Source: Acidilobus sp. 7A (GTDB lineage: Archaea > Thermoproteota > Thermoprotei_A > Sulfolobales > Acidilobaceae). Taken from it: a stretch of 64,000 bases of DNA. A program made the position numbers and the translations under genes. The first letter of the stretch is position 1. The number at the start of each line of letters is the position of its first letter. The DNA lies in assembly GCF_003431325.1 (NCBI RefSeq), contig NZ_CP010515.1, positions 1,302,001 to 1,366,000 on the forward strand. Direction: 5' to 3'. This document shows, one piece after another, positions 28,973-32,260 of the stretch. The notes beneath the pieces were generated by a model. It saw only the letters and a list, made by a program, of their open reading frames with translations, was not told where the DNA came from and searched no databases.

Positions 28973-29263
28973 TCATGAAGTTTGGTCTCCGTATTCGCCC
29001 ATCTCATCAAGTACAAGCTCATAGTAGTCCTCCTTGGCCTGCTCAAGCTCCTTCTCTTTCTCCTCCTTGTTTACTTGAACTTCCTTACTTACAACTGTCG
29101 TGGTCAGGACCCTCTTCTCGTCAGCCTTAGAGGTGCCCTTGTAGTCCTTCTCGGCACTCTTGTCGAGCTCCATCTCATAGCCGCATCTAGTACATCTAAG
29201 GACGACCTTATCGCCCTTCTTCACTGGTACCATAACTCCCCCACACCTAGGGCAGAACTTCAT
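28973..29263 (-). CDS. TFS/RpoM-like protein with only the N-terminal zinc ribbon
   Basis: A 96-aa protein whose first 30 residues are an Rpb9/TFS-type zinc ribbon: CPRCGGVMVPVKKGDKVVLRCTRCGYEMEL. Residues 60-96 are a charged helical or coiled-coil segment (KEEKEKELEQAKEDYYELVLDEMGEYG) in place of the second, catalytic zinc ribbon with its acidic finger found in TFS. It therefore could not stimulate RNA polymerase cleavage as TFS does, but could occupy the same polymerase site. No remnant of the second ribbon is seen past the stop. Single-gene unit. Confidence 0.72.
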   Translation of the reverse strand: MKFCPRCGGVMVPVKKGDKVVLRCTRCGYEMELDKSAEKDYKGTSKADEKRVLTTTVVSKEVQVNKEEKEKELEQAKEDYYELVLDEMGEYGDQTS

Positions 29264-29575: not shown

Positions 29576-30667
29576 CTAAAGCAGCGAGATAGGCGCGGGC
29601 CCCGTCTTATTCCTAAAGGTTCCAACTATATCTATCTTAGCTCCGCACCTGGGGCACCTATTGTCCTTGGTGAGGCGCCACGCCGTCACATAGAAGCCGT
29701 ACCTCTCTATCACAGGGTAGCCGCAGTTGGGGCAGTACGTGTGCTCGAGCGGGTGGCCTGGCACGTTGCCTATGTACACATACTTGAGGCCCTCGCCCTT
29801 GGCAACCTTTGCAAGCTTCTCAAGCGTCTTAACGGGCGTGCTCTCTAAGTCTATCATCTTATATGCAGGGTAGAACTTGAGCAGATGGAACGGGACCCTG
29901 TCACCCAGGTTGTCCACTACCCATCTGGCTAGCTTCCTTATATCGTCCTCGCTGTCGCCATACCTTGGCACCACAAGGTTAGTGATCTCTATCCAGATGC
30001 CCTTCTGCTTCATGGCCTTAAGGGTTTCAAATATGGGCTCAGGGTCGGGGACCCCCATGTGCTTTCTGTAGAACTCCCTGTTACCGCCTCCCTTGAAGTC
30101 AACGGTGGCGGCGTCCATGTAGTTCCCTAGCTCGTCTATGGCCTCGGGCGTGATATAGCCGTTAGTCACCATAGTGTTAAATAGGCCCGCTTTCCTTGCC
30201 CTCACTGCGGCGTCGTACATGAACTCATACATTATGGTTGGCTCATTGTAAGTGTACGAGATACCATCAGCGCCAACGTTCAGGGCGTCTTTTACCACCT
30301 CGTCAGGCGAATGATACTCTCCATAGAGGCCTTTCTCAAGCCTGCTCTGGCTTATCTCCCAGTTTTGGCAGAACTGACAGAAGAAGCTGCACCCAACAGT
30401 TGATATGCTGAGGACCTGACTGCCTGGGTTAAAGTGGCTCAGGGGCTTCTTTTCTATTGGGTCAATGTTGTAGGACGTCAGCAGGCCATAGACGTAAGTG
30501 TAGAGCTTCCCATCAACGTTCTTCCTGACTCCGCACACGCCCCACCTGCCTGGGGCTATGAGACAGCGCCTGTGACAGAGGTTGCACTTGACCCAGCCCG
30601 GCTTATCCTTCAGAGGCTCCCAAAACTTCGCCTCCCTCACGTAGGCATTCCGCTTACTCTCACTCAC
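29576..30667 (-). CDS. amrS: AmmeMemoRadiSam-system radical SAM enzyme
   Basis: A 363-aa radical SAM protein of the pyruvate-formate-lyase-activase-like group used in the AMMECR1/Memo/RadiSAM system. The [4Fe-4S] motif is C93-x3-C97-x2-C100 (VGCSFFCQFCQNWE). An N-terminal cysteine set (CNLCHRRC...C, residues 28-45) and a C-terminal zinc ribbon (TYCPNCGYPV...CPRCGAKI) flank the barrel. The substrate is unknown, and neither memo nor AMMECR1 is in the window. Its GTG start overlaps the stop of the upstream paralogue by one base (TAGTG). Confidence 0.9.
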   Translation of the reverse strand: MSESKRNAYVREAKFWEPLKDKPGWVKCNLCHRRCLIAPGRWGVCGVRKNVDGKLYTYVYGLLTSYNIDPIEKKPLSHFNPGSQVLSISTVGCSFFCQFCQNWEISQSRLEKGLYGEYHSPDEVVKDALNVGADGISYTYNEPTIMYEFMYDAAVRARKAGLFNTMVTNGYITPEAIDELGNYMDAATVDFKGGGNREFYRKHMGVPDPEPIFETLKAMKQKGIWIEITNLVVPRYGDSEDDIRKLARWVVDNLGDRVPFHLLKFYPAYKMIDLESTPVKTLEKLAKVAKGEGLKYVYIGNVPGHPLEHTYCPNCGYPVIERYGFYVTAWRLTKDNRCPRCGAKIDIVGTFRNKTGPAPISLL

Positions 30668-31542
30668 TAAATTATCACCGCCCTAGGGTCGTACCACCTA
30701 GTCCCTCTGCCACTTAGAGCTAGTGCCTGGGCAGAGGTTTTGTTCGATACTACGAAACGGAAGGGTAGCTCAAGGCCGCACCTCCAACACTTAGTGCCAT
30801 CCCTTAGCTCAAGCGACCTCAGCGTGGCGCCCTCCCTATAGGCGACCGGGCTACCACACCTAGGGCAGTAAGTGTTAAGCTGCTCGTAGAGGTCTACGTG
30901 AATGTAAACATAAGGGTTAGCCTTTCTGAGCACATCATACATATGCCTGACGGGACCCCCTCCTTCATGGTCTAAAAGGTGTACATGAATAGGGAAGCCA
31001 TAACTGGCTGTTATGGAGACCTCTCCCATCACATCCTCGGCTCTGGGCTTCTCGACGTACGTGTTAACTTCAACCCAAGCATCATTTTCTTTGGCTAGGC
31101 GTAACAGCGCGTCCAAATCGATGCCGCTGTAGCTGTAGTTCCCTGAACAGTGTCTGAAGTAGTCTACTAGAAGAAAGTCAACCCGCGGGAGGTCGCCCTC
31201 TATTGCAGGCGTCCTGAGACCCACCTTAAGTCCCGCGCGCCTCGCAGCACCTACAGCTTCGCTGAGTATAGGGTCCTTATGATATGACGTCTCCAGTATG
31301 ACTCCTGAAGCCCTCCACCTTCTCGCAAGGCCGAGCAGCTTTTCTGGTTCAACCTCCTTGAGAGGGGGCCCTTCCTCGGAGAGCCTGTAAACCTCTTCAA
31401 CATCACTAAAGCCCTCGCACATATCAAAGTTCAGGGGCCTACCAGAGTAAATGACGACCCTAACGACCGATCCGCCGCTCAGCGCGTGAAATAGGGGCAG
31501 GGACTCTGAAGTGGCGTATCCAAGGCCTGCGACCTGCACCAT
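30667..31542 (-). CDS. Cysteine-less paralogue of the AmmeMemoRadiSam enzyme
   Basis: A 291-aa protein without family recognition by name, but aligned by eye with its downstream neighbour: GVILETSYHKDPILSEAVGAARRAGLKVGLRT parallels GISYTYNEPTIMYEFMYDAAVRARKAGLFNTMVTN, VDFLLVDY parallels AATVDFKG, and the terminal zinc ribbon NTYCPRCGSPV...CWRCGLEL parallels TYCPNCGYPV...CPRCGAKI. The CxxxCxxC cluster motif is absent, so it cannot bind the radical SAM iron-sulfur cluster. It is probably a regulatory or scaffold partner of AmrS, coupled to it by a one-base stop/start overlap. Confidence 0.7.
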   Translation of the reverse strand: MVQVAGLGYATSESLPLFHALSGGSVVRVVIYSGRPLNFDMCEGFSDVEEVYRLSEEGPPLKEVEPEKLLGLARRWRASGVILETSYHKDPILSEAVGAARRAGLKVGLRTPAIEGDLPRVDFLLVDYFRHCSGNYSYSGIDLDALLRLAKENDAWVEVNTYVEKPRAEDVMGEVSITASYGFPIHVHLLDHEGGGPVRHMYDVLRKANPYVYIHVDLYEQLNTYCPRCGSPVAYREGATLRSLELRDGTKCWRCGLELPFRFVVSNKTSAQALALSGRGTRWYDPRAVII

Positions 31543-31603: not shown

Positions 31604-32260
31604 TTACTTGCGCTCGGCTGCAGCTTTGGCGTCCTCGATAGACCTCTTCAGCTCCTCCCTAGACTGAATGTCCACAAGCATGGCCTTGGTATCGTCTATT
31701 AGGCCCCTAGCCACGTCAACCTTGTGCCTAACGCCCGGTAGCACAGAGTCTGGGTAGTCAAGCGACCTCATGGACGTATAAATGGACTCCATGATTTCGA
31801 GCGCGGCCCACGCCTCGCTCATATAGCCCTGCCTGACCTTTTCAAGTGCGTACCTCCTCAGTTCCCCAACGACGTCTCCAAGGCCCTGCAGGTAGGGGAC
31901 GGGGTGAACGTTCAGCTCTTCAAAGGCTGGAACCCTGCCCTCAACAACTATAGAGTAGAGGAGCTTGGCTTCGACATACTCGCTAACGGCATTATACACA
32001 AGGCCTGAGTGAGCCAGCTCTGGATGCCTTGAGGCGACCTCCAGCATCTTCCTTGCAAGCTTCTCACATTCGTCAAGGTTTTCCTTGGCCTTCCCGAGGT
32101 CGCCCTGGTGAAGGTAAGTTATGCTCCAGCCGCTAAACCTTATAACATCTCTTGATATTTTAGCTATCTCCTCCCTGTCAGAGTCCAACGCCTTAAGGAG
32201 TCGGTCCACTCTGTCAACTGTGGAAGCTATGGCCTCCTTCAGACTTACGCTCTGCAACAT
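31604..32260 (-). CDS. Translin-family protein
   Basis: A 218-aa all-helical protein matching archaeal translin: ISRDVIRFSGWSITYLHQGDLGKAKENL near the N-terminus, SGLVYNAVSEYVEAKLLY in the middle and PYLQGLGDVVGELRRYALEKVRQG, the most conserved translin block. Translins form octameric barrels that bind single-stranded RNA or DNA; with a TRAX-like partner they cleave RNA, but no partner is present. tRNA-Ile lies immediately upstream on the same strand (25 nt), so both may share a transcript. Confidence 0.85.
   Translation of the reverse strand: MLQSVSLKEAIASTVDRVDRLLKALDSDREEIAKISRDVIRFSGWSITYLHQGDLGKAKENLDECEKLARKMLEVASRHPELAHSGLVYNAVSEYVEAKLLYSIVVEGRVPAFEELNVHPVPYLQGLGDVVGELRRYALEKVRQGYMSEAWAALEIMESIYTSMRSLDYPDSVLPGVRHKVDVARGLIDDTKAMLVDIQSREELKRSIEDAKAAAERK

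Follow-up and report, generated by a model that had tools for sequence, protein, structure and literature searches.

A cluster-less paralogue encoded directly upstream of the radical-SAM enzyme AmrS in Acidilobus sp. 7A: a candidate pseudoenzyme partner

AmrS is a partner of the widely conserved proteins AMMECR1 and Memo, and no description of its reaction was found in the literature that we searched. In Acidilobus sp. 7A, which belongs to a group of heat-loving archaea, its gene is directly preceded by a second gene whose product resembles AmrS and has no CxxxCxxC motif, which raises the question of what such a protein does beside a radical-SAM enzyme. We addressed it starting from a stretch of 64,000 nucleotides (the window), whose relevant features are given in Table 1. 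A first-pass annotation of this DNA had placed both reading frames, with their lengths and strand, exactly where Table 1 has them, and had rightly seen that the stop of the first and the start of the second overlap at a single base; the codons are TAG and GTG. Families are labelled f below (f1 being that of the window), genera g, genomes G and loci L.

Table 1. Features of the AmrS locus (positions are those of the window)
Feature	Position	Strand	Remarks
Cluster-less AmrS paralogue (candidate pseudoenzyme)	30667..31542	-	291 aa, ATG start; directly upstream of AmrS
Lost cluster loop site of paralogue (residues 31-46)	31405..31452	-	Single Cys, C42
Four-Cys ribbon of paralogue (C226, C229, C252, C255)	30778..30867	-	Invariant in 39/39 aligned family rows
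GGTGAT hexamer, Shine-Dalgarno-like	30674..30679	-	6 nt before AmrS GTG, inside paralogue gene
TAG/GTG stop-start overlap, one base	30665..30669	-	Base 30667 common to both
AmrS, AmmeMemoRadiSam-system radical SAM enzyme	29576..30667	-	363 aa, GTG start
N-terminal four-Cys motif of AmrS (C28, C31, C35, C45)	30533..30586	-	Absent from window paralogue
CxxxCxxC of AmrS (C93, C97, C100)	30368..30391	-	Invariant in 56/56 AmrS rows
C-terminal four-Cys ribbon of AmrS (C312, C315, C338, C341)	29645..29734	-	
Small RPB9/TFS-like N-ribbon protein	28973..29263	-	PF02150 31.8 bits; relatives' gene order

The downstream protein scores 339.8 bits against the AmrS family TIGR04337 (cut-off 220) and 85.1 bits against Radical_SAM (PF04055) of Pfam, and its AlphaFold model (pLDDT 94.4) has pyruvate formate-lyase activating enzyme (3c8f, 3cb8) as its top Foldseek matches (E 3.7e-14). 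The hexamer ahead of its start may act as its ribosome site; GGTGAT-N6-GTG occurs once in the window, against 0.17 expected from shuffles. Overlap is common in the family: taking candidate starts for AmrS, 23 of the 25 tandem pairs have one that overlaps the paralogue stop by 1-58 nt, and in the other two (G398 and G060) no overlapping candidate was found within the 60 nt examined.

The upstream protein is related to AmrS, a relation visible to profile-profile and fold comparison and not to sequence searches of the PDB, where the protein alone or as a profile yielded nothing credible (lowest E 1.6 and 0.12, respectively). BLASTP aligns it with AmrS at E 4e-10 (27% identity over the C-terminal half), and hhalign of 39 family paralogues against 26 AmrS sequences gives a probability of 99.4 and E 2.6e-21 over 252 columns, residues 9-272 matching 68-358 in a colinear alignment that runs from the PLYHxxPG motif through the ribbon. 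These two values rule out a chance likeness. Approximately the first 60 residues of AmrS, including their four-Cys motif, have no counterpart in the paralogue. The AlphaFold model of the window paralogue, run with 21 sequences, predicts an intact barrel (pLDDT 89.1, pTM 0.89) that resembles the partial TIM barrel of radical-SAM type; its best match in the PDB by VIA-align is pyruvate formate-lyase activating enzyme (Z 14.9, 2.8 A over 197 residues, 12% identity), followed by QueE and viperin (top matches Z 14.9 to 11.5), so that an unrelated fold, on which the earlier proposal would have fallen, is ruled out. In Foldseek its best matches are weaker (1.7e-4), with radical-SAM enzymes mixed with other TIM barrels. 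No Pfam family matched it over the cut-off, and TIGR04337 gives 23.4 bits through the ribbon only, which places it below the AmrS family threshold of 220. On sequence and predicted fold, common descent of the window paralogue and AmrS over barrel and ribbon is thus shown, in agreement with the annotation's description of a 291-aa protein that mirrors the barrel and ribbon of AmrS without CxxxCxxC, and the profile-profile comparison that it had suggested finds the two homologous.

The two proteins share the colinear barrel, the C-terminal four-Cys ribbon, a motif of PLYHxxPG type and a gene cluster; they differ in that AmrS has CxxxCxxC, the N-terminal four-Cys motif, TYNEP and K192, none of which is found in the paralogue. 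Pyruvate formate-lyase activating enzyme, its best structural match, likewise carries the cluster that the paralogue lacks, and we take this enzyme to be without a C-terminal ribbon. In the window paralogue a single Cys stands where AmrS has three cluster ligands, and CxxxCxxC is found neither in it nor in any of the 40 family paralogues. Two Cys remain at the old site in 34 of them, one in four (all four genomes of the window's genus), none in one (G414) and three, without the CxxxCxxC spacing, in the last; the spacing varies widely. Among 31 sampled family rows the equivalent of C93 is lost in all 31, while 30 still have the second Cys and 25 the third. K192, presumably the counterpart of the SAM-binding Lys of pyruvate formate-lyase activating enzyme, is replaced in 53/53 paralogue rows. 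Many family paralogues retain DGxEP or EGxEP, similar to the GGE motif; the window protein has no EP. In genus g6 (L114, L115, L116) the paralogue, divergent from AmrS, is rich in Cys, with 11-15 in the open frame.

What is retained lies elsewhere in the protein. Eleven residues are invariant in 39 family paralogues (E13, H19, E158, H186, Y213, T224, C226, C229, R236, C252 and C255), and their AmrS counterparts (E72, H78, E227, H261, Y298, T310, C312, C315, R322, C338 and C341) are fully conserved, or conserved to 90% or more, across 56 AmrS rows; none of the eleven is a cluster ligand. We infer that E13, H19, E158 and H186 would line a substrate pocket. As the standard cluster ligands are missing, the window paralogue is probably no catalyst of radical chemistry.

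A paralogue match (E up to 0.01) was obtained in 39 of 48 family genomes, which rules out a one-genome oddity. TIGR04337 matched in 47/48 (37/48 over the cut-off), AMMECR1 was found in 44/48 and Memo in 46/48; each of the four matched in 25/25 good genomes, AmrS in G408 and G416 falling below its cut-off. The genome survey proposed in the first-pass annotation therefore finds the pair conserved, both genes being matched in every good genome, and the idea of an active and an inactive paralogue has the support of the profile comparison, the fold and the conservation together. The window's own genome encodes AMMECR1, Memo and AmrS, and so the complete AmmeMemoRadiSam system, with the genes unlinked to each other; the paralogue-AmrS pair is far from both AMMECR1 and Memo. 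Six genomes (G385, G412, G411, G408, G404 and G407) have extra AmrS-like proteins of approximately 178-212 bits, below the TIGR04337 cut-off, which in most of them come in addition to a main AmrS.

We sampled 40 family loci with a paralogue, from 39 genomes. The paralogue precedes AmrS in tandem in 25 of these; AmrS is a divergent neighbour in three (G282, G429 and one of two in G430) and not adjacent in 12, all in genera g4 and g7. The RPB9/TFS-like gene is beside the pair in most family loci, often coming next after it. Several g4 and g7 genomes still have the paralogue directly beside this gene and AmrS elsewhere, which suggests that there AmrS departed from an older three-gene cluster. The RPB9/TFS-like protein itself consists of an N-terminal ribbon only and a conserved C-terminal tail (of EEYYELVLDQMGEYGE type), and the TFIIS-type ribbon (PF01096) of the same genome is encoded away from it. 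Just upstream of the pair, 31604-32260 on the minus strand encodes a Translin-family protein (PF01997, NF011161), for which the NCBIfam name, haloacid dehalogenase, disagrees with Pfam.

The paralogue extends to other families of the order and to one beyond it, which is new. When 197 genomes of the order were searched with a profile, long matches appeared outside the family, of which we took 30 for analysis; HMM scores assigned 26 to the paralogue and four to AmrS itself. In many genomes of the order that do have AmrS, this search returned no full-length match to the paralogue. CxxxCxxC is present in 11 of the 26 (f9 3/3, f7 8/8) and absent from 15 (11 f3, three f68 and one f10). Seven stand in tandem upstream of AmrS (three f9, three f68 and one f3), and 10/11 f3, 8/8 f7 and the sole sampled f10 relative are unlinked to it. 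The f9 relatives, directly upstream of AmrS, retain both CxxxCxxC and a GGE-type motif, and one of them (L213) is Radical_SAM by Pfam at 34.7 bits (cut-off 29.5); among the relatives, L216 (28.8) and L250 (25.4) stay below that cut-off. A search of 398 genomes of the phylum added G369 (f12; same class, another order), again in tandem with AmrS and with CxxxCxxC and GGE present. Acidilobaceae, Caldisphaera and Candidatus Hestiella are among the tandem carriers. In the f68 rows the first cluster Cys is Tyr, and in 10 f3 rows Ser, Gly, Ala, Pro or Val; the second and third are kept in 10/10 f3 and 2/2 f68 rows without the first. The motif-bearing f7 paralogues have lost H78 and H261 in 7/7 rows, and so probably have a different role. 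Family paralogues align with these relatives at hhalign E 1e-44, and the relatives with AmrS at 1.3e-34. Two further arrangements were seen. In a further Thermoprotei genome AmrS is directly preceded by a very divergent 287-aa reading frame (L177:3154-4017, plus strand) that matches the paralogue profile weakly (38 bits), has no CxxxCxxC and is possibly a further eroded copy; and L251 (925-2001, 1949-3052) and L252 (315-1382, 1330-2433), from other families of the phylum (G216, G246), each hold two intact tandem AmrS genes, both with CxxxCxxC.

Trees built with the cluster columns removed place the paralogue clade apart from AmrS with support 100/100, both with 72 rows and with 63, and every family with at least two paralogue rows forms one clade. 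The first tree leaves out 9/40 family loci, which are near-copies or the broken G425, as well as L212, L214, L226 and L229 of the 26 non-family paralogues; for the second, 12 further rows were thinned and three added. Of f3 and f7+f10, the two trees do not place the same one closer to f1. A single ancestral cluster loss is disfavored, in that the AU test (63 rows) speaks against the cluster-less paralogues as one clade at p 0.013, for a group named after the motif was seen and with long branches present; cluster loss was probably not one event. How many losses are counted varies with the tree: unordered motif changes number two in the first and three in the second, and irreversible losses, counted by hand, four and three. 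Motif loss is the natural direction of change, since AmrS, f9, f12 and f7 all have the motif, and a loss followed by regain in f7 is possible. Because relatives upstream of AmrS in f9 and f12 retain CxxxCxxC and a GGE-type motif, the window protein looks, by its sequence, like a decayed radical-SAM enzyme, and the survival of CxxxCxxC in the paralogue's relatives makes it probable that both members of the pair were radical-SAM enzymes in the past and that the second then lost its cluster.

These observations lead us to a reading in which we place about even confidence, from sequence and predicted models: the paralogue would be a pseudoenzyme that descends from a second radical-SAM enzyme, AmrS-like and upstream of AmrS, and is now a non-catalytic partner of AmrS. 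The ancestor would have been encoded directly upstream of AmrS and would later have lost its cluster; its descendant would be made in step with AmrS through overlapping translation, and would either form a heterodimer with it or meet it on a common substrate. The pocket (E13, H19, E158, H186) and the ribbon would hold substrate or stabilize AmrS, with cluster-based SAM cleavage in AmrS only. The retained barrel residues and ribbon, the gene pair, the shared presence, and the fact that all 25 good genomes match paralogue, AmrS, AMMECR1 and Memo alike argue for this partner role. A heterodimer is argued by linkage (25/40 loci tandem, three divergent), with AmrS elsewhere in 12/40. Against the partner role we count these 12 non-adjacent and three divergent loci, the mostly unlinked f3, f7 and f10 relatives, and the much faster evolution of the paralogue (mean column identity 37%, against 79% for AmrS); AmrS needs no paralogue in general, given the many AmrS-bearing genomes of the order without a full-length match.

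The same linkage data bear on a different reading, that of a stand-alone protein that binds substrate, nucleic acid or AMMECR1/Memo and whose adjacency to AmrS was merely inherited from duplication. Loss of linkage in 12/40 family loci, in most f3 and in all sampled f7 relatives would fit it, as would the g4 and g7 paralogues that stay by the RPB9-like gene with AmrS elsewhere; however, the AmrS barrel residues E72, H78, E227 and H261 are kept in 31/31 sampled family rows and both genes are matched in 25/25 good genomes, and we regard it as rather unlikely, at a little over one chance in four. The fast divergence could in turn be taken for that of a decaying pseudogene, a reading that we hold to be extremely improbable, as the frame is open in 39/40 loci (the exception is the tandem copy in G425, which unread bases break up), dN/dS is well below 1 and eleven residues are invariant. 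By NG86 the paralogue gives dN/dS of 0.10-0.17 in six pairs with dS <1, four further pairs being saturated or not computable. The corresponding AmrS values are 0.03-0.05 for four of these pairs; a fifth, with a truncated AmrS, gives 0.16. The paralogue is under purifying selection, weaker than that on AmrS, and with the invariant residues this rules out the pseudogene.

Two other proposals concern the old cluster site. The two Cys there in 34/40 family paralogues (equivalents of C97 and C100) make another metal or redox role possible, in which they would bind a cluster or a metal with some other ligand in a redox or electron-relay subunit, much as Dph2 serves Dph1. That second and third Cys are kept in 10/10 f3 and 2/2 f68 rows without the first is in line with this, as is the diphthamide precedent itself: in the accessible part of PMC8153317, Dph1-Dph2 is a paralogous pair of radical-SAM type with asymmetric roles, like AmrS and its paralogue, which differs in that both subunits hold [4Fe-4S] clusters and the chemistry is non-canonical. 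Nevertheless, the site has one Cys in all four genomes of the window's genus and none in G414, and its Cys spacing varies widely, which makes such a role improbable, at roughly one chance in eight. Less probable still, and to our mind very improbable, is a radical-SAM enzyme of unusual ligation. The intact predicted barrel and the GGE-like DGxEP or EGxEP of many family members would be expected of one, but the first Cys is gone in 31/31 family rows, the K192 equivalent in 53/53 paralogue rows and EP in the window protein as well, and known radical-SAM enzymes use three Cys, nearly always as CxxxCxxC, according to the accessible part of PMC10470005.

With respect to known systems, NCBIfam holds a radical-SAM-like family named pseudo (TIGR04347, pseudo-SAM/SPASM), by its name of another type (SPASM); L228 and L218 match it weakly, and the window paralogue gave no match at E up to 1. 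The accessible part of PMC7159879 mentions a radical-SAM domain related to Memo-AMMECR1 systems, and the paralogue is not among what is mentioned there. Our literature searches on the pair, on AmrS and on inactive radical-SAM proteins, whose coverage was mostly of papers outside subscription, found no description of the pair.

In a broader reading of pseudoenzyme and partner, which we hold tentatively and at somewhat less than even confidence, a second radical-SAM subunit upstream of AmrS would be ancestral in Thermoproteota and would have lost its cluster more than once, leaving a dead partner with pocket and ribbon and catalysis wholly to AmrS. If this is true, the steps are still to be seen in living genomes, from the intact motif (f9, f12) through loss of the first Cys (f68, f3) to the eroded site (f1), and such graded cluster sites offer a rare view of a radical-SAM enzyme becoming a pseudoenzyme. 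For AmrS itself, a natural dead subunit in which only some of the invariant AmrS residues persist would set cluster-independent residues (E72, H78, E227, H261 and the ribbon) apart from cluster-bound ones, and the paralogue would be a partner protein that could trap the AmrS substrate.
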